Part shown: piece after piece, positions 7,618 through 59,968 of the stretch
Position numbering within the stretch: position 1 is the stretch's first letter
Layout: each line of letters starts with the position of its first letter
From: Anaerolineales bacterium
GTDB taxonomy: Bacteria; Chloroflexota; Anaerolineae; Aggregatilineales; UBA2796
Length of the DNA stretch: 64,000 nt
Direction of reading: 5' to 3'
Assembly: GCA_015075625.1 (NCBI GenBank)
Contig: JABTTZ010000001.1
Coordinates: 248,001-312,000 of the forward strand
Notes under the pieces: generated by a model
What the model saw: the letters and a program-made list of their open reading frames with translations, nothing else
Database searches by the model: none
Told to the model about the DNA's origin: nothing
Position numbers and translations under genes: made by a program

Positions 7618-9266
7618 CGACGGAAAAGCGCTCGTTGTGGCGGCGGTGGGGGACGCGGATCGCGCTTGGGGCGGCGCTTCTGCTGATGATCGGGCATCTG
7701 ATCGTTTACCTTGTCTATGGCGTCTCGCTGCTGTCGTTCCCCTTCGACTACGATCAGGGCGAGGGCTTTGAACTGAACGACACCCTTCTGCTCAGTCAGG
7801 GGCAGAGTCCCTACCGCGATAACAACACCTTCCCCTTTTACGCCAGCAATTACCCGCCGCTCTACCACGTGATTTTGATTCCCTTTGCCAAGCTCTTTGG
7901 CGGGGCGTATTGGTACGGACGCTTGGCGGGCATCCTTGCCGGGCTGATCGCCGCCGCCGCCATCGCCTATGCCGTCCAGCGCGAGACGCGCCAGAAGGGG
8001 GTCGCCCTTCTGAGTGGGCTTGCCTTCCTTGCCTCGAATTACGTCTATCATATTGCGCCCCTCTTTCGGCAGCATTTGTTCATGGTCATGCTGGAAACCG
8101 TCGCCGTCATCCTCATCGGCGGAATCGCCGCCTACGAGGGAAATCCACGCCGCCAACGCCGCCTGATCCTGATCGCATTGGCGCTTTTGCTGGCGGCGGG
8201 CTACACGAAACAATTGGCAATCCTCACCTGCATTGCTGTCTTTGGCTGGCTATTGCTGCGCGGGGTGCGGCGGGCGGTTCTTTATGGGATCGGCTTTGCG
8301 GCGGTGGCAGGGGGCTTGTTTCTGCTCATTGACGCCAGCACGGGGCATCAGTGGTGGATCAACATCATCAGCGCCAATGTGAACGATTACCTGTTCAGCC
8401 AGTACACGGGCTTGCTGCGCCAATTTTGGGGGCTGCACGGGGCGCTCTTGATCCTTGCTGGCGTGTTCGTGGTGTACGAACTCTACCTAGAGCGGTTGTC
8501 CATTTACAGCGTGTGGTTTGTCGTCTCAGCGGCGGGAACGACGCTGGCGGGGAAGTGGGGCGCGGGGGATAGCTATTTTGCCACCTGCATTGCCGCCATG
8601 TGCATCCTCGCCGGACTGTTTACGGGGCGCTGTCTTGGGCGGGAGTGGCGCCTGCCGCCGGCATTCTCCGTGCGGGTGGCGCGGCTTTTGGGGCGGCTTG
8701 GGCTTGGTGGTTGGATCGGGCGTTTGGCGCAAATTTTCACGCCGCTGTTGGGAATTGCCGCGCTCAGTTTGTTCGTCCTCTACGGGCTTGCCGTCGTGAA
8801 ACTGCCGCTGAATGCGCCTATGGTGGGGGATATTGCCCGCGCCCTCAACATGAGCAGCAACACGAAATTTCCCCATTTCTACGATGGGGCGGGCTGGACG
8901 ATGGGCTATGCGACGATTGGGCAGATTCCGACGGCGGAGGATGTGGCGCACGGCGAGGAAATCCTCGCCCTGATCCGCGCCCAGAATGACCCACGCCCGA
9001 TACTGAGCGAGGAAGCGGCGTTCAGCTTTCACTTGGGCAAACCCGTTGTGACGAACCCGACGCAACTGCTGAATCTCTATGCGAACGGGCTGTACGATCC
9101 CGCCGAACTGGTGGGGATGATTGAGGCAAAGGCGTTTGCGGCGGTAATCTTTCGGGCGCAGTTTTACCCCCCGCCCATTTTGGCGGCGGTGGATCGCGCC
9201 TATGCGGTGCGGGCGGTGATCCCTATGAATGGCTACGAGTACACGGTGCTATTCCCCAAGCCGTGA
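7614..9266 (+). CDS. Polytopic membrane protein, GT39/ArnT-like glycosyltransferase
   Basis: A 550-residue membrane protein with about ten hydrophobic helices and a soluble C-terminal domain. The first outside loop after helix 1 has the acidic pattern 'DYDQGEGFELN' followed by 'SPYRDN' and 'NYPPLYH', as in GT-C fold mannosyl- or arabinosyl-transferases, where an acidic residue in this loop is catalytic. Such enzymes use polyprenyl-phosphate sugars at the outer face of the membrane. The donor and acceptor are not evident. The start overlaps the stop of the small membrane protein at 7405. Confidence 0.7.
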   Translation: MTTEKRSLWRRWGTRIALGAALLLMIGHLIVYLVYGVSLLSFPFDYDQGEGFELNDTLLLSQGQSPYRDNNTFPFYASNYPPLYHVILIPFAKLFGGAYWYGRLAGILAGLIAAAAIAYAVQRETRQKGVALLSGLAFLASNYVYHIAPLFRQHLFMVMLETVAVILIGGIAAYEGNPRRQRRLILIALALLLAAGYTKQLAILTCIAVFGWLLLRGVRRAVLYGIGFAAVAGGLFLLIDASTGHQWWINIISANVNDYLFSQYTGLLRQFWGLHGALLILAGVFVVYELYLERLSIYSVWFVVSAAGTTLAGKWGAGDSYFATCIAAMCILAGLFTGRCLGREWRLPPAFSVRVARLLGRLGLGGWIGRLAQIFTPLLGIAALSLFVLYGLAVVKLPLNAPMVGDIARALNMSSNTKFPHFYDGAGWTMGYATIGQIPTAEDVAHGEEILALIRAQNDPRPILSEEAAFSFHLGKPVVTNPTQLLNLYANGLYDPAELVGMIEAKAFAAVIFRAQFYPPPILAAVDRAYAVRAVIPMNGYEYTVLFPKP

Positions 9267-9276
9267 TGTTGGTGGG

Positions 9277-9305
9277 GCGGGCGGACGCCCAGGGGGCGCC
9301 CCTAC
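9277..9305. repeat. Dispersed palindromic intergenic element, copy A
   Basis: Read on the minus strand it is GTAGGGGCGCCCCCTGGGCG followed by TCCGCCC. It is one copy of a short imperfect palindrome also seen at 12270, 19792, 28293 and 50477. It lies between convergent genes (7614 rightward, 9416 leftward). The rest of 9267-9415 holds no gene that I can see. Confidence 0.5.
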
Positions 9306-9415
9306 GAAACCCCATTGGGGCGATTCGACGGCGTGCCGGCTAATATTCCCATGCCAACACGGCGTGCCGTGTCCCCTGCTGCCCTCCGTGTGCGAGAGGG
9401 GCGGGAGACCCGAGG

Positions 9416-10696
9416 TTACGCGCCGGCAATGCCAAGCACATAGGCGTTTGGGTTTAGGTAATGCCGCGCCGCCGCGCTGACCTCCTCTGGCGTGATCGCG
9501 TTCACCCGCTCGGCATAGCCATAGAGGTAATCCAAACCGAGGTTATGGCTCAGCATCGTCAGAATCATCGTCGCTACCCCTTCGTTGCCTTCCAACGCCA
9601 GTGGCAAACGCCCCGTGTAATTCGCCTGACTATCCGCCAATTCCTCGACACGGATCGGTTCATCACAGAAGCGGGCAACTTCCGCTTGCATCAGGCTAAC
9701 CGCCGCCCGGACGTTCTGCGGGGCAACCCCAGTGGTCACCACCCAGGGGGTCTGGACATGAGACGCCCCCAAGCGGCTGTTGGCATAATAGGCAAAGCCT
9801 TCCCGCTCCCGAATCACCTTCCCGATGCGCCCCATCATCCCGAACACGCCGAGGATGTTGTTTGCCAGACTTGCCGCCGTGTAATCCGGCGCGGCGCGTT
9901 CGGGACCGACCCACGCCATGACCACATCGGTCTGGGTTTTGCCCGGGAGCGCCGTCACGCGCTCTTGAATCGCCACTATCGGCTCGGCACGAGGGATGAG
10001 CGGAAGGGCGGGCTGGTCAGGATTCGCCCATGCCCCTAGCGCATCCTCCACAAAACGAACGGCATCCTCTCCCTTCACCGCACCGACGATCACAAGCTTC
10101 ATCGCCCGTGCGCCGTAATGCCGCGCATGGAACGCCCGTAGATCGTCAAGGCGCAGGGTGCGCACGGTTTCTGTTTCTTCGGCAAGACTAAAGGAATTGG
10201 GGTGTCCCGCCGGATAGAGAAAGCGCGTCGCATTTTCCGAGGCAACGAGGCGGCTGTTTTGTGCCGCCACTTTCAACCCAGTGAGCGATTCCCCACGCAG
10301 TCGCTCGGTCTGGTCGTCGGGAAAAGCGGGGTGCATGAGGACATCGGCGGCGATCTCCAAGAGGGTGGGCAGGTCTTCGGCAAGGCATTTCCCACTGAAA
10401 GAGAGGGTGTTGATCCCGCTGGAAAAGCCCAAACGGGCGGCTAAGCCATCGAGCGTCTCGTAAAGCTGATCGAAGGTGCGCCGCTGCGTCCCGCGCATCA
10501 GCGCCGAGGCAACGAAATCTGCTAAGCCGCTCTGTGCCGGGGGATCAAAGACACTCCCCGCCTCAAGATAGCCCGCCATAACGACGGACTCGGCGGCAAA
10601 ATTTTCCCGTACATAAACGGTGATCCCATTCGGCAGATCGCGGACGAAAATATCCCGTGAGCCGGGAAGGGCGTGTGTGGCGGTTTGGTCAGTCAT
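9416..10696 (-). CDS. M16 family peptidase-like protein lacking the zinc-binding motif
   Basis: A 426-residue M16-type protein (clam-shell zinc peptidase fold, with two homologous halves). I chose ATG 10696 because the fold begins there; an upstream extension to 10855 is non-conserved in character. The expected HXXEH motif, as in 'GLAHFLEHMLF-GT', is replaced by 'SGLADFVASALMRGT'. Both His and the Glu are gone, so it cannot bind zinc in the normal way. In M16B pairs one subunit often lacks the motif and works with an active partner. No partner is adjacent here, so a regulatory or scaffolding subunit is inferred. Confidence 0.8.
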   Translation of the reverse strand: MTDQTATHALPGSRDIFVRDLPNGITVYVRENFAAESVVMAGYLEAGSVFDPPAQSGLADFVASALMRGTQRRTFDQLYETLDGLAARLGFSSGINTLSFSGKCLAEDLPTLLEIAADVLMHPAFPDDQTERLRGESLTGLKVAAQNSRLVASENATRFLYPAGHPNSFSLAEETETVRTLRLDDLRAFHARHYGARAMKLVIVGAVKGEDAVRFVEDALGAWANPDQPALPLIPRAEPIVAIQERVTALPGKTQTDVVMAWVGPERAAPDYTAASLANNILGVFGMMGRIGKVIREREGFAYYANSRLGASHVQTPWVVTTGVAPQNVRAAVSLMQAEVARFCDEPIRVEELADSQANYTGRLPLALEGNEGVATMILTMLSHNLGLDYLYGYAERVNAITPEEVSAAARHYLNPNAYVLGIAGA

Positions 10697-10944
10697 TGTC
10701 AGTGTGTGTCTTTCGATCTCTAACATCACTTTATAGATGGGTCGCGGATGCGGAAGGGGGAGTCCCAAACAACAGGGACTCACCCTATCCCGCAAAACGC
10801 GGTATCGGCTATACTTAACTAAACCTTGTTTGCCGTAAGGTTGTCCCGAGGGCAAAGAGTTTATTTGCCATCTTTAACGTCGCACATGGTCTTTCAACAG
10901 ATCATCAGATAGTTCATCATACTTACTGACAGGAGTCCCCCTCA

Positions 10945-12240
10945 ATGGTTGCGAATGTTGTTTTATCGTCGGTTCATAAAACAGCCGACCCCACCTATCT
11001 TACCGCCTTACAGCAATATGATCGCGCTGTGTCGCATCTGAAGTTGGAAGACGGTCTGACCGAATTCATGAAATGGCCCCGTCGTGAACTCTCGGTAAAT
11101 TTCCCCGTTCGTATGGACGATGGGAGCATCCGCGTGTTTACGGGCTACCGCGTTCACCATTCTACCGTCCTCGGTCCCTCCAAAGGCGGTATTCGCTACA
11201 GTTCGCATGTCAACATTGACGAAGTACGCGCTCTTGCGATGTGGATGTCGTGGAAGTGCGCCCTTGTCAACCTACCCTACGGCGGGGCAAAGGGTGGCGT
11301 GATTGTTGAGCCGAAAGACCTCTCCACCCCTGAACTTGCCGGTCTCACACGGCGCTTCACCTCGGAAATTATCCTGCTCATCGGACCAAAAATTGACATT
11401 CCCGCCCCGGATATGGGGACGAATGCCCAAACAATGGCATGGATGATGGATACCTACAGCATGACCGTTGGCTATTCTGTGCCAGCGGTGGTCACGGGCA
11501 AGCCAATCAACATTGGCGGCTCGCTTGGGCGCGAGGAAGCCACCGGACGCGGGGTGATCGTCTGCATGTTAGAGGCGCTCCGCCACAAGAAAATCACCAG
11601 CAGCCCGAAAGATATTTCCGTCATCATTCAAGGCTTTGGGAATGTGGGGGCGAACGCCGCAAATCGCGCCTATGAATTAGGGTTCAAGGTGATAGCCGTC
11701 AGCGATGTATCAGGCGGCTATTACAATAGCAACGGCTTGAACATCCCCGCCATGCGCGAACACATCCGCCGCAGCACGCGTAAGACGCTTGATGGGTACA
11801 CGACGGATGTTGAACGCATCTCCAACACCGAACTGCTGGAACTTCCCTGCGATGTCTTGATTCCGGCGGCGATGGAAGGACAGATCACCGAGAAGAACGC
11901 CAACAACATCAAGGCAAAGCTGATTGTGGAAGGGGCGAACGGTCCAACGACACCCGAAGCGGACGACATTTTGACGGATCGCGGCGTGTTGATCGTCCCC
12001 GACATTTTGGCGAACGCTGGCGGGGTGACGGTCTCTTACTTTGAATGGGTGCAGGGGTTGCAAGAATACTTCTGGGACGAAGATGAGGTCTATCGCCGTC
12101 TAGAGCGCATCCTGATCAACGCCTATGAAGCGGTGGTTGCCACCCAAGAGGAATACCACGTAGACCTACGCACAGCAGCGCAGATCACAGCGATCAACCG
12201 TGTTGCACAGGCGACGATCACACGGGGGATTTACCCGTAG
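10945..12240 (+). CDS. Glu/Leu/Phe/Val dehydrogenase (glutamate dehydrogenase)
   Basis: A 431-residue hexameric-type amino-acid dehydrogenase, most like NAD(P)-glutamate dehydrogenase. It interconverts glutamate with 2-oxoglutarate and ammonia. Diagnostic stretches are 'GYRVHHSTVLGPSKGGIRYS' in the substrate-binding domain, 'CALVNLPYGGAKGGV' with the catalytic Lys, 'PAPDMGT' and the Rossmann motif 'IQGFGNVGANAA'. The length fits the family. ATG 10945 has AGGAG eight bases upstream (ACAGGAGTCC). It is transcribed away from the M16-like gene. Cofactor preference cannot be decided from what I see. Confidence 0.93.
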   Translation: MVANVVLSSVHKTADPTYLTALQQYDRAVSHLKLEDGLTEFMKWPRRELSVNFPVRMDDGSIRVFTGYRVHHSTVLGPSKGGIRYSSHVNIDEVRALAMWMSWKCALVNLPYGGAKGGVIVEPKDLSTPELAGLTRRFTSEIILLIGPKIDIPAPDMGTNAQTMAWMMDTYSMTVGYSVPAVVTGKPINIGGSLGREEATGRGVIVCMLEALRHKKITSSPKDISVIIQGFGNVGANAANRAYELGFKVIAVSDVSGGYYNSNGLNIPAMREHIRRSTRKTLDGYTTDVERISNTELLELPCDVLIPAAMEGQITEKNANNIKAKLIVEGANGPTTPEADDILTDRGVLIVPDILANAGGVTVSYFEWVQGLQEYFWDEDEVYRRLERILINAYEAVVATQEEYHVDLRTAAQITAINRVAQATITRGIYP

Positions 12241-50673: not shown

Positions 50674-50862
50674 ATGCTGGCAACCGTTCAGTCTGGGGCG
50701 CTGATTGGGCTAGAGGCAATAGGTATTCAGGTTGAAATTGATTACAACCCTCGCGGCATGACTGGGTTTACCATTGTCGGGCTGCCCGATACGGCTGTTC
50801 AAGAGAGCCGGGAGCGCGTGCGGAGCGCCATACGCAACCGGAATTTAGACTTCCCGAACTAG
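50674..50862 (+). pseudogene. comM: comM/yifB (Mg-chelatase-like AAA ATPase), N-terminal fragment cut by the mobile element
   Basis: The first 61 codons of the ComM/YifB family: 'MLATVQSGALIGLEAIGIQVEIDYNPRGM', then 'FTIVGLPDTAVQESRERVRSAIRN' and 'LDFP', followed at once by a stop. Normal family members continue for about 450 more residues, starting with an 'RITVNLAPADL' block. The remainder is presumably beyond the right end of the element. ComM is a helicase that aids branch migration in natural transformation in Gram-negative bacteria. Its loss would be expected to reduce uptake of foreign DNA, if this host is transformable. Confidence 0.88.
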
Positions 50863-53029
50863 CATCCGAATCTGAGGCTTTCATTTGCGCTGCGTATTGG
50901 TCGTAGCTGATGTGCTGTCCCACACCAGACATGGGCACTCGTATTCCCTTTCCGAGCAGAAGTTTGATGCGGTGCTTAATCTGAATCCATCGCCGGAACG
51001 GGAAAGCTTTCATGATTTCCAGTTGCTCAACTTTGTCTTTGACCATCTGGCATAACCGCTCATCTTCGTAGGGCTGCCATTTTGAGCAAGTGTGTTTACC
51101 CTTGCGCCCCCCTGACGCAACATAATCATTGTACGTTTCGTTTTTCCCAAGTCTGGAGGGCGAAAAACGGACTAATCCACGGTGCTTTTTCACTTCATTG
51201 AATATTTGGTGCCATCTCAGTTCGGGAAACGCTGCCGCGAGCTGTAGCTGATCCGCACCACCATCGAATAGGGCAAGCAACCGTTCACTGGACTCGATGT
51301 CCCAATGGGCTGAGTGGGATTTATGCCAAAGGCGAATCTCATCTGTACTTCCGTCACGCCACAGGATGATAAGTCGCATATTCCCAGCCCGATTATAGTC
51401 CGATGCCTCAATTCGTTCGATGAACAGCGTCAGCACGTTGCGTCGTTCTTCTTGAGACATGGAATCCCAACCTGACAGCGTTTGCTCAAATACCTCGTAT
51501 GCCTGTTCAGTAGATAGATATTTGTTGCGTTGTTGATCGAGGCTGGCAATTTCCGCAAGCAGGCGATCCCGTTCTGCTTCCATCTGGCGATAGCGTTCCT
51601 CAACTTCTTGGATCAAGTATGGGTGAGTAAGTCTGCCAATGCTGACGACCACATTCTGCATCTCCTCGAGAAGCGAAGATAGCTGGAGCTTCTTGATTTT
51701 TCGATCACGCTCTACAAGCTGTTCGCTCTCATGAATAGCTTGAGTCCAGGTGTCCAAATTGAATGTGGCCTGCAATTTCTGCTTAAAACGTGAAATGACA
51801 GCGTTATCAATCCATTCTGCCCGCCGTGCCCATTCCATATGAGTACCGTCATATTCGACACGATGGATGGCATACAAATAGCAGTGGTTTCGCTTTTCGA
51901 ACTGGACACCATTGTAGTACCAGCGGTCTCCGACCTTTGAATAGATCATTCCGCCAAGTAGGGGGCGCTCAACATCGCGTTCTTCTTGGAGTTTTGGACG
52001 CCCGTACTTATCCGCATTTTGATAGTCAGGGTTGTCCTCACCAGTCAGCGTGTACTTGGAAATGTAGTTGAATGCGCGCATAAAGGTGTCGGGATCAATC
52101 AATGGTTGATGGTTGTTCCAATGGATGATTACGCCCTTGAAATGCCAATGCCCTATGTAGGCAGGATTCGTGATCAGCAACCGGAAGCACGTGCTTGCGA
52201 TATAGCAACCATCTTCCTTGTATGTCAGCTGATAGCGTATGCGAAATCCTTCAGGAGGCTGACAATCTGGAAAGGAGATACGCTGCTGGCGAATCTGCCT
52301 TATTGTCTTGCGAATCGCTCCACCATTCTCAAGAAACAAGCGGAAGTATTCCCGAACAACCTGGGCAAATGGCTCGAAAGGGACATATTTGCGGTAGGCG
52401 GGGTTTTCCGTCCCATCAGGCAGTCGTTTTCGCATATCCACCATGAATCCGACTGGCATTTTCGACCCACCCCATTTTCCTTCTTTCATTATGCGCTGAC
52501 GTGCTGGCGTGAGTCGCCCCATGATATAGATTTTGAGATATTCTGCCGCCATGTCACACTTGAACCGAAATTGCCGTGCATGAAATTCCCCATGCAAAGG
52601 ATGCGCAAAATCATAAGTGATATATGGCGTGATGACTTTGACTCGTGATTTGCGGCAAGTGTCGATGAAAATGTTGACTTGAATCTGGGTCATATCACGA
52701 AACAGACGATCTTCATCTTGACACGCCACTGCGCCAATCTTTTTCTCGGCAATTAGCTCAAATAGGTAGCTCATCCCCTCACGTTCATCAATTCGCTTGG
52801 TACCGCTTACGCCCTCATCATCGTCAATCAGATAGATTTGTTCACGCTTCCATCCCCGACGGACAAGTTCATCTACCATATCCACCGTCTGGATGGTAGT
52901 CGATACATTCCCGACTTGAGCCGTTGTAGACTGGCGATAATAGACCGCCACAGGTTGACTCAAGAGGTCGGCCTCTGAGCTTTCTGGGCTGTCAAGATCA
53001 CTTTTCTGTGGTCGGAACGTTCTGGGCAT
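50768..53029 (-). CDS. Large serine recombinase (integrase of the element)
   Basis: A 753-residue site-specific recombinase. The resolvase domain (about 25-175) has the catalytic Ser in 'VAVYYRQSTTAQVGN' and Arg in 'CQDEDRLFRDM'. A Recombinase domain follows ('MKEGKWGGSKMPVGFMVD', to about 320). The usual zinc-ribbon Cys pairs are absent: 'LLGGMIYSKVGDRWYYNGVQF' stands in their place. Next is a coiled coil (about 430-510) and a C-terminal part with two similar helical units, 'SSERLLALFDGGADQLQLAA' and 'EDERLCQMVKDKVEQLEIMK', each followed by a W/I-rich helix, which resemble SANT/Myb-type DNA-binding repeats. The last 30 or so codons are antisense comM. Confidence 0.9.
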   Translation of the reverse strand: MPRTFRPQKSDLDSPESSEADLLSQPVAVYYRQSTTAQVGNVSTTIQTVDMVDELVRRGWKREQIYLIDDDEGVSGTKRIDEREGMSYLFELIAEKKIGAVACQDEDRLFRDMTQIQVNIFIDTCRKSRVKVITPYITYDFAHPLHGEFHARQFRFKCDMAAEYLKIYIMGRLTPARQRIMKEGKWGGSKMPVGFMVDMRKRLPDGTENPAYRKYVPFEPFAQVVREYFRLFLENGGAIRKTIRQIRQQRISFPDCQPPEGFRIRYQLTYKEDGCYIASTCFRLLITNPAYIGHWHFKGVIIHWNNHQPLIDPDTFMRAFNYISKYTLTGEDNPDYQNADKYGRPKLQEERDVERPLLGGMIYSKVGDRWYYNGVQFEKRNHCYLYAIHRVEYDGTHMEWARRAEWIDNAVISRFKQKLQATFNLDTWTQAIHESEQLVERDRKIKKLQLSSLLEEMQNVVVSIGRLTHPYLIQEVEERYRQMEAERDRLLAEIASLDQQRNKYLSTEQAYEVFEQTLSGWDSMSQEERRNVLTLFIERIEASDYNRAGNMRLIILWRDGSTDEIRLWHKSHSAHWDIESSERLLALFDGGADQLQLAAAFPELRWHQIFNEVKKHRGLVRFSPSRLGKNETYNDYVASGGRKGKHTCSKWQPYEDERLCQMVKDKVEQLEIMKAFPFRRWIQIKHRIKLLLGKGIRVPMSGVGQHISYDQYAAQMKASDSDASSGSLNSGCVWRSARAPGSLEQPYRAARQW
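50855..50870. other. Left attachment junction (attL) of the integrated element
   Basis: Similarity to ComM ends at 'LDFP' (codons ending near 50857), and sequence beyond belongs to the element. The exact crossover dinucleotide cannot be fixed because attR lies outside the window. TTCCCGAACTAGC is the junction sequence. Confidence 0.6.
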
Positions 53030-53246: not shown

Positions 53247-53588
53247 CTACTCAGTGTGCGAGTGTTTTTTGAGCGTTTCAGACAGAATGCGAATTAACTG
53301 AAGTGCAGCCTCTCTCGCCTCTGTAGTAGGGAGAGTTTGAATCTCCTGCAAAATCATCTGGTCGAGCGCGTCTGTCTGAAAATCTCCATCGTAGAAGTAT
53401 GACACCGGAATTCCGAGCACTCTGGCGAAGGTGGAAAGTTCTACCGCAGGAACTTTCCGTTTCCCCGTTTCATACTCGGATATTGCGGTTTGATCCTTTC
53501 CTACCGCATCTGCAAATTCCTTTTGGGACATGCCAATTCGCTCACGAGCCTGGCGCATTCGCTGTCCAATATCTGCTTGGCTTGCCAC
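53247..53588 (-). CDS. XRE/Cro-CI family transcriptional regulator
   Basis: A 113-residue protein with an N-terminal HTH: 'IGQRMRQARERIGMSQKEFADAVGKDQTAISEYETGKRKVPAVELSTFARVLGIPVSYFY' (about 7-66). The C-terminal part is helical ('REAALQLIRILSETLKK'). It lies between the integrase and the replication operon, the usual place for an immunity or excision repressor. The targets may be its own promoter or that of the integrase. It lacks a peptidase domain, so it would not self-cleave after DNA damage. Confidence 0.87.
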   Translation of the reverse strand: MASQADIGQRMRQARERIGMSQKEFADAVGKDQTAISEYETGKRKVPAVELSTFARVLGIPVSYFYDGDFQTDALDQMILQEIQTLPTTEAREAALQLIRILSETLKKHSHTE

Positions 53589-53631: not shown

Positions 53632-53841
53632 TTACCTCTTCAAATGTCCTACATCTTCAGGCTTAAGACTGGCCTCTGTTGCGATGGTTGCAGAAATCGG
53701 GGTCTCTGCGATCTGCTGACCTGTTTCACTCGGGTGGTTACGGACATACGCGCCGAACAGCGTTCGATACACAGTCAGTAAATCGATCTGCTTTGGCCGC
53801 ACCTGCTGGTGGTTTTCACCGTTCTTGTGCATTGAACTCAT
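53632..53841 (-). CDS. Small protein of unknown function, 69 aa
   Basis: Starts at ATG 53841, which overlaps the primase stop (ATGA); ATG 53859 (75 residues, MAKRIDMSS...) is an alternative in the same frame. The sequence 'KNGENHQQVRPKQIDLLTVYRTLFGAYVRNHPSETGQQIAETPI' is hydrophilic, with one helix. I recognise no family. Its position at the end of the replication operon suggests an accessory replication or control role. Confidence 0.5.
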   Translation of the reverse strand: MSSMHKNGENHQQVRPKQIDLLTVYRTLFGAYVRNHPSETGQQIAETPISATIATEASLKPEDVGHLKR

Positions 53842-54815
53842 GTCAATTCGCTTAGCCATTCCCGCACACTCCCATCCTTCAGCACAAATTCGGTGATGTC
53901 CTTGCCCCACGGCACTTGCACAACACGCGCTCGTTTGGTGAGCGCCTGCAAGCGTGCTGCGCCCTTCATGCCTGCTTGGTCCGCATCGTAGGCCACAAGA
54001 ATTGTCTTGCAGTGAAGCAGCAGTGGCATCCAACGCGGATTGAGCATTCCAGAGGCACTGCCGAGCGTCGCCACACCGACCAGCCCACCACATTCCTGCT
54101 CGGCCAGCAGCGCGTCAAATTCCCCCTCGACAAACAACACGGTCTCATGCCCTTCCAGGTTGGCTGCGTTGTACAGCCCGTGCGCGCTGCCGCCCGCAAT
54201 CTGGGTGTATTTCGGCAAGCCAGCGGCGCGCCGCACCTTGACCGCCCAGAGTTCTTTCCCCACAGCCCAAGGAATGACGATGCCGCATGGAACCGTCAGT
54301 TTGCCAATCCGCAGCCATTCCCACGGTGGGCCGGGGATGTAGCCCAGACGCGCCCGTAAAATGGTTTCGTCGGTCAAGCCGCGTGTCTTGAGATATATCA
54401 GCGCACGTCCACCCTGTTCGCTCCACAAGACCTCTTCCGCGCTATCCACCACTCCCCATGCCTCGCGTTGCCAGTCTTCTGCGGGCGGCGCTTCGGACGC
54501 GGCAGATCGCTCACGCGGGACGTGGCAGATTGGCTGCTTGCGCCTGTCTTCCGCACCGAGGTAAGTACATGCTTCTTCAAAAGACATTCCACGGTACTTC
54601 TGCAACCAATCCAACGCATCGCCACTCACACTGCAAGCGCCAAAACAGCGCCACCCGTTATCCCATACCGCCAAGCTGAACCCCTTATGTTCGTTATGAA
54701 AGGGACAGCGCCATAACAACGCTTTCCCGCCGCGACTGTGGGCGGGACCCAAATCGGCTTCCACCAGCAGACGCACATCGCAGCGCGTTTTGAGCGCTTG
54801 AATATCGGTCATCAT
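53838..54815 (-). CDS. CHC2 zinc-finger/Toprim primase-like protein
   Basis: A 325-residue mini-primase. The CHC2 finger is 'WRCPFHNEHKGFSLAVWDNG' followed by 'WRCFGACSVSGDALDW' (about 30-66). The Toprim domain has Glu in 'VLFVEGEFDALLAEQ' (about 215) and Asp-x-Asp in 'ILVAYDADQAGMKGA' (about 265). The helicase-binding C-terminus of chromosomal DnaG is absent. It probably primes replication of the excised or transferred element. It is downstream of the DUF3987 gene, and its stop overlaps the next start. Confidence 0.88.
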   Translation of the reverse strand: MMTDIQALKTRCDVRLLVEADLGPAHSRGGKALLWRCPFHNEHKGFSLAVWDNGWRCFGACSVSGDALDWLQKYRGMSFEEACTYLGAEDRRKQPICHVPRERSAASEAPPAEDWQREAWGVVDSAEEVLWSEQGGRALIYLKTRGLTDETILRARLGYIPGPPWEWLRIGKLTVPCGIVIPWAVGKELWAVKVRRAAGLPKYTQIAGGSAHGLYNAANLEGHETVLFVEGEFDALLAEQECGGLVGVATLGSASGMLNPRWMPLLLHCKTILVAYDADQAGMKGAARLQALTKRARVVQVPWGKDITEFVLKDGSVREWLSELT

Positions 54816-54912: not shown

Positions 54913-56508
54913 CTATTCCACCAAGATATACAGTTCAGGCTTTGGCCCAGGGCGACCATCCGCAGGCGGCGCTACTTTTTTGACCTGCCCATCTTGCTCT
55001 AGCGCGTTGAGCATCTCGACCACGGGCTTGCGTGCGGATTTCAGGATGCGATACAGATGGCGCACACTCAGCCCTTCGGGATGCGCTCGCAGCAACCGTA
55101 TCGCCCGCACTTCCAACCGTGACTCCTCGGTTTCGCCCAATTCATGCAGTAAGCGATGGGCGGAAGCCCGCCACTGCTCGGTAATCTGCTGGGCACGAAA
55201 CCAGTGGGCGGCACTGACTGCTGGATGCCCATCCGCATTGGCGTCTGACCAATCCAGCGCCGACAAGACAATGGCGACTTTGAGGGCTTGCACATGCAGC
55301 CGCCCGTACACGGCTCGTAATCGGTCGTCCAACGCGCTGTCTGGCGCGGTCATGCGCCGCAACGCCTGTTCATAGGCATGACAGAGATCCCATACGGGCG
55401 CAACCAAGGACCAGGCTTCCGCCTGCGGCTTGTCGCCCAGCGCGCCAGAGGACGGGGGTGGGGGCAGGCGCTCATGCAGGCGCTTCAGCCGCGCCACCAG
55501 CGAGTCAGGCGTAACGCTTTGCCTCTGGGCAGGGCGCTCTACGTAGTCAGGTTCAGGCGTCAACAGCGCGAAGCGCGCCAGGTTGCCGTTGTACCAGTCG
55601 TTGACGGTCAGGGCGCAGGCCAGTTCAGCAGGCGTGGCCGCGCCCAAAATGCTCAGGGCGGTGTCATGAATCACCACCAGCCCGCGATTGTTCGTATTCG
55701 AGTCCAGATAGGCAGGGCAGTCGTAGAGCTGCATGATCAGTTCTTTCAGCCCAGCCATATAATCGCGTCCCATCGACTTGAACAGCGCGGATAGCTCATC
55801 GCGCAGGATGCCCCGCTGGGCGGCGAAGGTGTTGCCTTTCGTCAGCCGCGCCTGATCGGGCTGCGGGATTTCGTTGAAGTTCGGCGGCAGCACCCCGCCG
55901 AGCATGTTCATGAAGTTTTCCGGGCTGCCCGGCTGAGGCAGAATCATGTGTGGCATGGCGGCGCGAGCGACCTCTGCGGCCAAACTCAATCCCGCCGACT
56001 TACGATAGTAGGTCGAGACGGCGACGGTCATCGCATACAGGTTGGGGAAGACTTGTTGTCGCCAGGGCGTGCTGATGTAGAGCCTTCGCCCGATAGCGAC
56101 AGCCGCTAGATACAGACCCGCGCCCTGATGAAACAGGAGCGGCGTTTCGTTGGCTGACGCGCCCGCCCATGTCACATAATCCGTCAACCAACCGCCCACC
56201 TCCGCCGCTTCCGCTTCCTGCGCTGCTGTCAGGCGTGCAGCGGCGGGAAGCGGTGGCACAGATTGCACATCATCGTTCTTGAGATCGGGTAGATCCGCAT
56301 TGGGGTCTTGTGCCAGAACTTGACGGATCAGATCAGGCTGAAGAATGCGCCGCAAAACCTGCATCTCCGCAGGCGTGTTGAGGTCCAATCCTGCCAGCAG
56401 CGCGCCAGCCAACGGCGAAAGCGGCACGTGCTGCCAGGGCAGTCCGACTAAGGCTCGCGCAAGCGCATAGGCATCGTAACGCGACAAGGCGTTCGCGGAA
56501 GAAGGCAT
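54913..56508 (-). CDS. DUF3987-type replicative helicase-like protein
   Basis: A 531-residue protein of the DUF3987/YfjI type found on plasmids, phages and integrative elements beside primases. The body has 'LYLAAVAIGRRLYISTPWRQQVFPNLYAMTVAVSTYYRKSAGLSLAAEVA' (P-loop-like position, but degenerate: STYYRKSAG), 'QRGILRDELSALFKSM' and 'ILGAATPAELACAL'. The C-terminal 70 residues form a winged helix ('LRAHPEGLSVRHLYRILKSARKPVVEMLNALEQDGQV'). A role as helicase or initiator for the element is inferred from the family and the neighbours. Confidence 0.78.
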   Translation of the reverse strand: MPSSANALSRYDAYALARALVGLPWQHVPLSPLAGALLAGLDLNTPAEMQVLRRILQPDLIRQVLAQDPNADLPDLKNDDVQSVPPLPAAARLTAAQEAEAAEVGGWLTDYVTWAGASANETPLLFHQGAGLYLAAVAIGRRLYISTPWRQQVFPNLYAMTVAVSTYYRKSAGLSLAAEVARAAMPHMILPQPGSPENFMNMLGGVLPPNFNEIPQPDQARLTKGNTFAAQRGILRDELSALFKSMGRDYMAGLKELIMQLYDCPAYLDSNTNNRGLVVIHDTALSILGAATPAELACALTVNDWYNGNLARFALLTPEPDYVERPAQRQSVTPDSLVARLKRLHERLPPPPSSGALGDKPQAEAWSLVAPVWDLCHAYEQALRRMTAPDSALDDRLRAVYGRLHVQALKVAIVLSALDWSDANADGHPAVSAAHWFRAQQITEQWRASAHRLLHELGETEESRLEVRAIRLLRAHPEGLSVRHLYRILKSARKPVVEMLNALEQDGQVKKVAPPADGRPGPKPELYILVE

Positions 56509-56515
56509 GGTCGCC

Positions 56516-56716
56516 TCAGCTTTCCTGCTGTCGCGTCACGCTGTCTGGGCGGGGAATCTGCCGGGCATATCGTTGCAGACCCTCAACCACGAGGATGTAC
56601 ACCATATCGGCCAGCTTGCGGCGCTCGCCCCGCGCCACTTTCACCAGTAGGGCATAGTCTTCTTCGGTAAGGCGGAAGCCCATCGTGCGGGTACGAGAAG
56701 GTATTTTCATCTGCAT
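56516..56716 (-). CDS. Small ribbon-helix-helix-like protein
   Basis: A 66-residue basic protein: 'RTRTMGFRLTEEDYALLVKVARGERRKLADMVYILVVEGLQRYARQ'. One strand followed by two helices fits the RHH DNA-binding fold of plasmid copy-control and mobilisation proteins. It is first in the leftward replication operon, 7 bp before the DUF3987 gene, so it may control that operon. Confidence 0.68.
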   Translation of the reverse strand: MQMKIPSRTRTMGFRLTEEDYALLVKVARGERRKLADMVYILVVEGLQRYARQIPRPDSVTRQQES

Positions 56717-56930
56717 GGCGGCTCCTGTCGTGAACTGTTTTCATCCGTAGTTGCAGGGTAGCAGATACCGCGCATTCGTTCTGGATAATTTCATCCATCG
56801 GCAGGGACAAAATTGTCCAAAGGCATGAGCAATTTTCGGACAAAGGGAACGAATTCTTCCGGTTTGTTGCCAAACGTTATTGAACCGCTTCAACACACCG
56901 AAACTTAACCAGACTCTGACGCTCCTTGTA

Positions 56931-56984
56931 TTTACATTGAGGAGATTCTCTGCGAGAATAGCGCTGCCAGAACATTCGTTCTGG
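56931..56984 (+). promoter_or_regulatory. Promoter with a GAAC-N4-GTTC (SOS-box-like) operator
   Basis: TTTACA (56931-56936), a 17-bp spacer and GAGAAT (56954-56959) form a sigma-70-type promoter. Just past the predicted start point lies CCAGAACATTCGTTCTGG (56967-56984), a 7-bp palindrome with a GAAC-N4-GTTC core, the form of LexA boxes in Gram-positive bacteria. ATTCTC/GAGAAT (56945-56959) is a second small palindrome overlapping the -10. A half copy CATTCGTTCTGG recurs at 56773-56784, exactly 200 bp upstream. The whole 56717-57019 gap serves both the leftward and rightward operons. Confidence 0.6.
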
Positions 56985-57019: not shown

Positions 57020-57682
57020 ATGGCTTCTATTCACGTTGCGGTACTGGAAGACCGTGAACTGACCCAACTTGGCTTGCATACCTTCTTGAAGGGCAAGCCA
57101 GAGTACCAGTTGGTGGGCATGTTTACGGACTTATCCAGCCTTATCAGTAAGTTGGAGGAGCGACCGGCACAGGTGCTTATCCTGGATAACACCCTGCCGG
57201 GAATGGATACCTGTATGGTCATTCGCAAGCTGGCCCAACGGTTTGCCATGCTCCATATCCTCGTCTACGGCAGTGAATTGACTGCTGCCTCTATCCATGA
57301 TGTGATTGATGCGGGCGCTTCCGGGTGTATCAGCAAAGCGGAGTTGCTGAAGTACCTTGAAGACGGCATCCATCACGTGCTGAGTGATATGCCCTACTTC
57401 TCGCCGCAGGTCGCTGCGCTGGTATGCACCGATGATGAGCTTCAAACCCTCAGCAAGCGCAGTCGGCAGGTGCTCCAACTCCTTGCGAAGGGACTCATGG
57501 TGCCGGAGATCGCCCGGCAATTGGCGATCTCGGAACAGGCGGTCTACCATGCGCGGCGACGGTTGCGCAAAGTGCTGAATGTGCGCGCCAACGAGGAGAT
57601 CGTGCCACGCGCGCAACGGTTGGGGCTTATCAAATCGTCGTCTGGGCTGACAGATGCCAAGAGCGAGCCGGAGTCGCAGTAG
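57020..57682 (+). CDS. NarL/LuxR-type response regulator, element-encoded (1)
   Basis: A 220-residue protein with receiver and LuxR HTH. The receiver has 'VLEDRE' (acidic pair), 'VLILDNTLPGMD' with the phospho-acceptor Asp, and 'GCISKAELLKYL' with the conserved Lys, so phosphorylation is possible. The HTH (about 145-205) is 'LSKRSRQVLQLLAKGLMVPEIARQLAISEQAVYHARRRLRKVLNV'. An AGGTGAT site lies nine bases before ATG 57020. A terminator follows the gene. No histidine kinase is adjacent. It probably controls element genes in response to a host signal. Confidence 0.87.
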   Translation: MASIHVAVLEDRELTQLGLHTFLKGKPEYQLVGMFTDLSSLISKLEERPAQVLILDNTLPGMDTCMVIRKLAQRFAMLHILVYGSELTAASIHDVIDAGASGCISKAELLKYLEDGIHHVLSDMPYFSPQVAALVCTDDELQTLSKRSRQVLQLLAKGLMVPEIARQLAISEQAVYHARRRLRKVLNVRANEEIVPRAQRLGLIKSSSGLTDAKSEPESQ

Positions 57683-57725: not shown

Positions 57726-57760
57726 GCCCCACCCTGAAAACGCGCTGTGGGGCTTTTTTT
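57726..57760 (+). terminator. Rho-independent terminator
   Basis: GCCCCAC (57726-57732) pairs with GTGGGGC (57747-57753) around a 14-nt loop, followed by seven T (57754-57760). It ends the regulator transcript and separates it from the segregation pair. Confidence 0.85.
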
Positions 57761-57866: not shown

Positions 57867-58901
57867 GTGCGGCAACCAGAAATTCTCACCCTTGGTCTGG
57901 ATATTGGCTATGGTGCGGTGAAGGCGGTCACGGAAGCAACGTCGTTGGTGTTTCCATCCGTATGCGGCCATGCCAGAGACATCAAGTTTCAGCAGGATGA
58001 AATCGCGGCGCGGCATCCCGGCGATCAACTCCGCGATGAGATGGGAACGTGGTTCATCGGCGATCTGGCGCTCACCCAACTTCCGCCAGGGGAACTGCTC
58101 CGGCTGCGGGGGCGCACCGCTGATGAAGTGACGATGGGCAATGTTTTCCGGGTGCGGTTAGCAAAAGCCGCTATTGGCAAACTGTGGCCGGGCCGCGCCG
58201 GAGGTGACATTCTCCATCTGCGGGTGGCGACGGGCTTGCCGGTGGATCACATGCCCGACGCGCCAGAACTGAAGGCGGCGCTGCTTGGGCAACATGTCAT
58301 CAAAACGGATGCCACCGACTTCATCGCCAACATCACCGAAGTCATGGTCATGCCGCAGCCTTACGGCACTATCTATGCCCAGACGCTCACCGAAAGCGGC
58401 GAGGTCAACCCAGCGCACAGCTACATGCGAACGGGCGTGTGCGATGTAGGGACGTTCACTGTTGACCTAGCGCTGGACGACGACGGCGAGTTTGTAGACG
58501 CGGAGAGTGGCAGTGTGGAAGGCGGCGTGTCCGGCGTGTTGGAGCGCATCGCAGCCCTTTTGGAGCGAGAACACCGTCAGAAGATTTCGCCCAAGCTGAT
58601 CGAGACGGTGCTGCGGACGGGCAAGTTTCGGGCGAAGGGGGAGATGATCGATTATAGCGAGGCCGTCGAGAGCGCCCTCGAACCCCTGCGCAGCGCCACA
58701 CTCAACCTCATGAGCGAAAAGTGGAAAGCCGGTACGACGGTAGACGTAATTTACCTCTCTGGCGGCGGAGCGGAACTGGTTCACGAGGCGGTAGCGGCGG
58801 CCTATGCGCAAATGCAGTTGGTGGCGCAAGCGCAGTTGGCAAACGCGCAAGGCTACCTGCATTATGCGCTGTTCGCGGCACGCGTTCCTGAGCAATCCTG
58901 A
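57867..58901 (+). CDS. ParM/StbA-like actin-family segregation ATPase
   Basis: A 344-residue actin-like protein. GTG 57867 has GGAGG seven bases upstream. Phosphate-1 motif 'LTLGLDIGYGAVKAVTEA' (about 5-22), connecting helix region 'GDILHLRVATGLPVDHM', phosphate-2 'GVCDVGTFTVDLALDDDG' (about 190-207) and adenosine motif 'VIYLSGGGAELVHEAV' (about 295-310). ParM filaments push plasmid copies apart during division. The ParR-like gene follows by 9 bp, and promoter and repeats precede it, so the three form a plausible parMRC cassette. Confidence 0.82.
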   Translation: MRQPEILTLGLDIGYGAVKAVTEATSLVFPSVCGHARDIKFQQDEIAARHPGDQLRDEMGTWFIGDLALTQLPPGELLRLRGRTADEVTMGNVFRVRLAKAAIGKLWPGRAGGDILHLRVATGLPVDHMPDAPELKAALLGQHVIKTDATDFIANITEVMVMPQPYGTIYAQTLTESGEVNPAHSYMRTGVCDVGTFTVDLALDDDGEFVDAESGSVEGGVSGVLERIAALLEREHRQKISPKLIETVLRTGKFRAKGEMIDYSEAVESALEPLRSATLNLMSEKWKAGTTVDVIYLSGGGAELVHEAVAAAYAQMQLVAQAQLANAQGYLHYALFAARVPEQS

Positions 58902-59278: not shown

Positions 59279-59968
59279 ATGGAGCAATACGGAAAGACGA
59301 CACTTCAGACAGGAAAGGCGATGTTAAGCTCAAATCGAAAGATGCGCGTTGTCGCGGCGGACGATGTGGATTTGGTCTTGACCGGGATAAAAGCCATTCT
59401 GACCGCATGGAACGAATGCGATTTGTTAGGGGTGTATGCGTCGCTCCCTGATCTGCTGACTGGACTTCGATCCGCTGCGCCAGACATCATCATTGTGGGA
59501 GATCGGCTCGATATGGATTGCGCTCCGCTCAAGCTGATCGATACCCTCAAAACAATCACGCCTCGCGCACGCTTAGCCCTCCTCGGCAACATGGTCGATG
59601 GCTTCGCGGTGCAGGAGTTGTTCAACCGGGGAATTCACGCCTATCTCTACAAAAGCGATCCCTTGACCGAGACGCTGATCCCGGCGCTGCGGGCGATTCA
59701 CCTCGGCAGGCCCTATCTTTCGCCAACCGCCAGCGCGGAATACTTGCTTTCAACCCAGCGTGGATCTGCACGCTTCCGCCTTGATTCGGAAGCGCTGAGA
59801 ATCCTGCAACTGCTGGCGGAGGGCTGCACCGTCCATGAGATCGCCGCGCAGCTCAAGGTCACGGTGCGGCATGTCTACTGGGTACGTGAGAAACTGCGCC
59901 GTCGGTTTGGCGCGGCGACCAACGAGGTGATCATCAGCCGAGCGAGGTTGGAGGGGTTCATTCCCTAA
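59279..59968 (+). CDS. NarL/LuxR-type regulator with degenerate receiver, element-encoded (2)
   Basis: A 229-residue protein related in layout to the regulator at 57020. The receiver starts 'MRVVAADDVDLVLTG'. Where the phospho-acceptor Asp should stand the sequence is 'PDIIIVGDRLDMD', that is Gly at the expected site and Asp one position later, so phosphorylation is doubtful. The HTH is 'LDSEALRILQLLAEGCTVHEIAAQLKVTVRHVYWVREKLRRRFGA' (about 165-215). It starts 17 bp after the ParR-like gene, perhaps in the same transcript. ATG 59321 is a possible later start. Confidence 0.83.
   Translation: MEQYGKTTLQTGKAMLSSNRKMRVVAADDVDLVLTGIKAILTAWNECDLLGVYASLPDLLTGLRSAAPDIIIVGDRLDMDCAPLKLIDTLKTITPRARLALLGNMVDGFAVQELFNRGIHAYLYKSDPLTETLIPALRAIHLGRPYLSPTASAEYLLSTQRGSARFRLDSEALRILQLLAEGCTVHEIAAQLKVTVRHVYWVREKLRRRFGAATNEVIISRARLEGFIP

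Follow-up and report, generated by a model that had tools for sequence, protein, structure and literature searches.

The best-known DNA-damage-responsive integrative conjugative elements (ICEs) respond by means of repressors or proteases that they encode themselves. For example, ICEBs1 is an ICE of Bacillus subtilis, where the LexA box is GAAC-N4-GTTC, and it is governed by a repressor (ImmR) and a protease (ImmA) of its own, unlike the element described here. It also stimulates the host SOS response (PMC11841131). The SXT/R391 ICEs are likewise tied to the host SOS response, through a RecA-responsive self-cleaving repressor of their own, SetR (PMC9578287). Direct control of mobile elements by LexA is already known as well, in the Bacillus thuringiensis phage GIL01 (PMC4551915; PMC6182141) and in integrons and some phages (PMC9578287). 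The box GAAC-N4-GTTC has been described for Bacillus and Mycobacterium and, by extension, for Gram-positive bacteria (PMC3323433).

How does a mobile element of the Chloroflexota compare with these systems? The DNA analysed here, called the window, is a 64-kb stretch of Anaerolineales bacterium (GCA_015075625.1, contig JABTTZ010000001.1, positions 248,001-312,000). A paper is said to have shown the same box in Dehalococcoides, another genus of this phylum. In the window, the box stands at the start of a NarL-type response regulator gene, and the control proposed for it is direct LexA control like that of GIL01, a kind already known. In both elements, sites of the Gram-positive type for the host LexA lie, or in the window are predicted to lie, downstream of an element promoter start, and a full site is accompanied by a half-site (PMC4551915); the half-site adjoins the full site in GIL01, whereas it lies 200 bp away in the window. 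GIL01 is a phage with the LexA partners gp7 and gp6 (PMC4551915, PMC6182141), while the window element is conjugative-looking. As for a LexA homologue or partner encoded by the element, a profile search with LexA_DNA_bind (PF01726) matched only the host lexA in the window's genome and none in the element, which may still encode a partner like gp7; LexA homologues exist in related elements. Control of the SXT type calls for an element repressor that combines a helix-turn-helix domain with an S24-type peptidase, whereas the XRE-type protein of the window element has HTH_3 only, and its operator matches the host LexA. LexA-controlled integron integrases resemble the present case in having the SOS box directly in the element promoter (PMC9578287); the integron box controls a recombinase, while the window box is predicted to control a response regulator.

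Probable operator, predicted promoter and genes of the element

The LexA-type operator CCAGAACATTCGTTCTGG occupies positions 56967-56984, with the halves CCAGAAC and GTTCTGG separated by ATTC and the core GAACATTCGTTC at 56970-56981. It abuts a predicted promoter on the forward strand (56931-56959), which consists of a -35 element TTTACA (56931-56936), a 17-bp spacer and an extended -10 element GAGAAT (56954-56959) preceded by TG at 56951-56952 (TGC-GAGAAT). The two elements together match the consensus at 9 of 12 positions, plus the TG; the -10 alone matches at 4 of 6, which was counted against a LexA operator. The palindrome starts 7 bp downstream of the -10, and 35 bases separate its end from the start codon (ATG, 57020) of the regulator gene. 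Thus an earlier note on this DNA was right in the sequence and coordinates of a GAAC-N4-GTTC box over the start of the regulator, and in placing it just downstream of a -35/-10 pair and 35 bp before the gene. The order of promoter parts and box is that of the host recA promoter.

Two further copies in the same intergenic region had been overlooked. One is the 12-bp stretch CATTCGTTCTGG at 56773-56784, an exact repeat of the right half of the main box 200 bp upstream of it. With a degenerate left half it forms a probable second, weak operator, predicted at 56767-56784, which faces the divergent genes for the ribbon-helix-helix-like, DUF3987 and primase proteins. Ranking seventh in the window with 8.6 bits on a matrix of host boxes, this site is not significant alone, and the presence of only a half-site at this position was counted against LexA. 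The other is a third GAACGAAT octamer at 56847-56854 on the forward strand.

Downstream of the box, the regulator (57020-57682, forward strand) is a NarL/LuxR-type protein of 220 aa with Response_reg (1.7e-12) and GerE (2.9e-11) domains. It is followed by a probable intrinsic terminator at 57726-57760 on the same strand (7-pair outer stem, -13.7 kcal/mol, then a T run), a structure absent from the list given by the terminator scan of the region. Further right on the forward strand come a ParM-like actin homologue of 344 aa (57867-58901; ALP_N 2.4e-16; ParM model 2.1e-30, below its cut-off) and a second NarL-type regulator of 229 aa (59279-59968), which is kept in related elements; the right arm beyond it carries genes common to them. 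On the reverse strand, divergent from the regulator, lies a 66-aa ORF (56516-56716), which is ribbon-helix-helix-like by eye only and had no match in a Pfam search; a homologue 52% identical to it stands in the same place in the related locus L183. The replication module follows, with a DUF3987 protein of 531 aa (54913-56508, reverse; 3e-15) and a primase-like protein of 325 aa with zinc ribbon and Toprim domains (53838-54815, reverse). Next on this strand are the XRE-type protein of 113 aa (53247-53588), for which the domain search bears out the earlier claim that it has no peptidase, while the host LexA has S24, and a large serine recombinase of 753 aa (50768-53029; Resolvase 3.9e-10, Recombinase 1.5e-6).

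Beyond the window, the element encodes topoisomerase I, a VirD4-type coupling protein (L182:4123-6159; T4SS-DNA_transf 1.3e-35) and a VirB4-like candidate (L181:6631-8769), whose match to the NCBIfam VirB4-like model, 2.5e-5, is far below the cut-off. With the serine recombinase as integrase and VirD4 as coupling protein, the element looks conjugative from its gene content. The same part of the element carries a defence-like island (L181:13171-20000 and L182:14-3726) encoding an SNF2 helicase close to HmaA/BrxHI, a methylase close to HmaB, and PglZ-like and DUF499 proteins. L182 also encodes a 1078-aa reverse transcriptase (8493-11729) that matches the UG35 (DRT) model at 1.3e-195.

SOS boxes of the host

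Is the box of the host's own form? The product of the host lexA gene (L001) has S24 and LexA_DNA_bind domains. Its promoter carries a one-mismatch box, TTCGACCATACGTTCGCC, in the -35/-10 spacer (CGACCATACGTTCG, between TTGACT and TATAAT), and two additional GAACGAATG half-sites. The host recA (L017) has the exact box CTAGAACTTTAGTTCTGA just after its -10 (AGAACTTTAGTTCT, directly after TATTCT); no box was found at a second recA copy (L018). The conserved letters of the operator thus match the boxes of the host lexA and recA, and the finding that the earlier note had named as refuting its proposal, host boxes of a different sequence, is absent.

The same form prevails in related hosts. When 4+4 palindromes were counted without supervision upstream of 79 Anaerolineae lexA genes (one of 80 loci lacked upstream sequence and was left out), GAAC-N4-GTTC came first, in 42 of 79, and the next two palindromes (21 and 20) are shifted readings of it. 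The nearest LexA relatives have mostly one-mismatch boxes, and most of them pair a box in the promoter spacer with another behind the -10. In 17 genomes chosen as holders of related elements, a box at 0-1 mismatch precedes all 17 lexA genes (12 exact) and 14 of 20 recA loci (3 exact, none of them outside the family of the window), or 14 of the 15 genomes with a recA match at the threshold used.

What is more, exact sites in the host genome lie in promoter positions more often than random positions do. Among the 41 exact GAACN4GTTC sites, 13 lie outside called ORFs, and 8 of the 41, the regulator site among them, lie outside ORFs with a gene of no fewer than 130 aa starting no more than 120 bp downstream. 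Of random positions, 5.4% are placed in this way (binomial P 0.0013); the test missed recA, whose ORF is truncated in that locus, and the reversed control pattern gave no promoter-like site among the 15 of its 99 sites that were taken in. The genes behind exact sites include an SSB-like gene, a gyrA/parC-type gene, a tyrosine recombinase, an ABC transporter and a carbon-nitrogen hydrolase, and one-mismatch 14-mers precede RecG and DnaX genes. These sites fit what an SOS regulon would give, together with some unrelated genes.

Some other sites were observed in passing. Three promoter-like sites have TAGAACTTTTGTGCTA boxes (L312, reverse of 1501; L315, reverse of 3881; L316, 1501), with a near-identical hairpin, GAAACRCTGCGCAGYGTTGTTTC, behind at least two of the boxes (L315 and L316) and a similar stretch at L312; they are possibly an SOS-controlled repeat or small RNA. 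A phage-capsid-like protein (L313:1671-2543; Phage_capsid_4, 2.2e-16) is encoded 170 bp after a AGAACTTATGTGCT box in a TTGACA promoter. A near-box, AGAACGATAGTTTT, precedes an XRE gene by 27 bp and lies about 42.6 kb past the right end of the window (L322:1501; G000:C1:354597).

Related elements and their LexA homologues

Related elements were found with the DUF3987 protein, and relatives were counted at E <= 1e-100. Of 154 genomes from the order, 37 contain such relatives, while a genome of the same genus (G001) has none, a patchy spread as expected for a mobile element. Searches with the same protein found nothing in viral contigs and nothing in plasmids. In 26 loci, the window's included, the sequence before the DUF3987 gene was read for up to 1500 bp: 14 have an exact box, 7 only one-mismatch boxes and 5 none, one of these five offering just 240 bp. 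The 12 loci lacking an exact box were counted against LexA. A further stretch, L191, with the DUF3987 gene outside it, holds no exact box.

For a shuffle test, 17 of the 26 loci, forming 11 clusters, were picked for having an ORF where the regulator should stand, irrespective of their boxes. Left out were L188, L189 and L190, with the regulator 2.2-3.2 kb away, and L251, L252, L263, L267, L268 and L270, which have no intact regulator ORF near or end with the contig. An exact box lies between the divergent genes in 9 of 11 clusters, against a mean of 0.11 and a maximum of 3 in 1000 shuffles; two boxes at 0-1 mismatch are present in 7 of 11 (mean 0.28, maximum 3). The top palindrome in these regions is again GAAC-N4-GTTC (9 versus 4). 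Regulator homologues make up 16 of the 17 ORFs; the neighbour in L265 is not a NarL homologue, and without this locus the count of exact boxes is 8 of 10 clusters. The placement is also kept: 8 of 11 clusters have a box (0-1 mismatch) 50-90 bp before the regulator (the exceptions being L187, L249 and L265), and 7 of these 8 have a second box about 100-245 bp beyond the first, on the side of the replication module. This upstream part thus holds a better box in related elements than the half-site of the window. Between clusters the N4 differs while GAAC and GTTC stay constant, as expected for LexA. Some f2-family elements have the variant GAAC-N4-GTGC, and the same variant is found in most f2 and f4 recA genes.

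Some relatives carry LexA homologues of their own. In an element of genome G068, a gene between the two NarL-type genes encodes a 147-aa protein that has a LexA DNA-binding domain and no peptidase. Similar proteins of 133-155 aa, which show the helix-turn-helix of LexA and what looks like a coiled coil, were seen in five more of ten extra LexA-domain loci examined, and 5 of the 10 (G068 counted) adjoin homologues of the element's primase or DUF3987 gene. In another element type (G046, G033), a serine recombinase gene stands beside a NarL-type gene followed by a gene for a LexA homologue of 215-219 aa (L184:9870-10529; L185:10654-11301); G046 has two exact boxes before the NarL-like gene, and G033 one exact box and one with one mismatch. 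Aligned with host LexA, these homologues have leucine at the position of the S24 catalytic serine and arginine at that of the lysine, and the AAG cleavage site is replaced. These proteins are apparently inactivated. It is conceivable, though we put it at slightly less than an even chance, that a family of conjugative-looking elements in the Anaerolineae placed its central divergent control region under host LexA, one box serving the regulator and the other the replication module, and that several branches later acquired LexA homologues unresponsive to RecA. This would give a graded series from host LexA alone, as in the window, to a two-LexA switch, independent of GIL01.

Weighing the readings

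Could the palindrome be a chance occurrence with no regulatory role? The window holds one exact GAACN4GTTC against 0.88 expected, and 60 of 100 shuffles contain at least one. With about one core per 64 kb expected by chance, the motif by itself proves nothing, and the 4.68-Mb host genome has only 41 copies against 99 of the reversed control pattern. The longer form AGAACN4GTTCT occurs exactly three times in the 4.68 Mb, at the regulator, before recA and before the gyrA/parC-type gene. When the window was scanned with a matrix built from 46 host lexA/recA boxes (training mean 15.4 bits), CCAGAACATTCGTTCTGG ranked first at 16.5 bits, the next site scoring 10.6, and it kept rank 1 at 16.3 bits after the window genome's own boxes had been removed. 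Equally good sites are present in 10 and 13 of 100 simulated windows (10-13%), so that this rank is supportive and no proof. Pure chance is nevertheless set aside as highly improbable, because the rank and the conservation in related elements, as well as the promoter position, argue against it although the motif count fits it. We give next to no credence to an RNA hairpin at the transcript start, acting as attenuator or 5' stabiliser: the terminator scan does flag GCCAGAACATTCGTTCTGGT followed by a T-rich tail, but in relatives the symmetry is mostly limited to GAAC and GTTC, which makes for weak hairpins as judged from the sequences.

Another explanation is that the palindrome serves a regulator of the element itself, be it the XRE protein, the ribbon-helix-helix-like protein or the NarL protein by autoregulation, and that its likeness to a LexA box is coincidental or convergent. 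Mobile elements often have divergent regions under their own control, and three GAACGAAT copies in one intergenic region, two of them sharing 12 bp exactly, would suit such an operator. Against this, the flanks as well as the N4 change among relatives, the letters that stay are those of the hosts' own lexA and recA boxes, and the GTGC variant is common to some f2-family elements and to most f2/f4 recA genes. Thus we regard an operator for the element's own regulator as unlikely.

We therefore consider it probable that the palindrome is an operator of the host LexA, which would directly repress the NarL-type regulator until the SOS response lifts the repression. The regulator carries the operator type of the host recA, kept in relatives, so the DNA-damage alarm of the host probably controls it. 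From the sequence we infer LexA binding, SOS induction and the regulator's effect on the element, as follows. In an undamaged cell, a host LexA dimer on the box just past the start region would block RNA polymerase. RecA filaments on single-stranded DNA would then bring about self-cleavage of LexA, so that the regulator is made and may act on promoters of the element. The weaker half-site 200 bp upstream would probably tune the divergent DUF3987/primase replication module. Note that the probable terminator, which was counted against a LexA switch, implies that the box probably controls the regulator alone on that side; any wider effect must then run through the regulator. The earlier note had proposed that DNA damage could switch the element on directly through host LexA rather than a self-cleaving repressor. 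This is partly supported: an operator of the host's form and an XRE protein lacking a peptidase speak for the direct control, while the switching on of the element by the regulator is a presumption.

In the literature searched (titles and the starts of abstracts, with few subscription papers), no description of such Anaerolineae elements was recognised, nor one of an ICE regulator that host LexA represses directly. The operator is kept in many related elements of the Chloroflexota, a phylum with almost no SOS work in that literature. The apparently inactive LexA homologues borne by some elements may make it possible to test how the timing of such a switch changes when a second LexA is present. 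If true, direct control of an ICE-type regulator by host LexA would tie gene transfer in the Chloroflexota to DNA damage.
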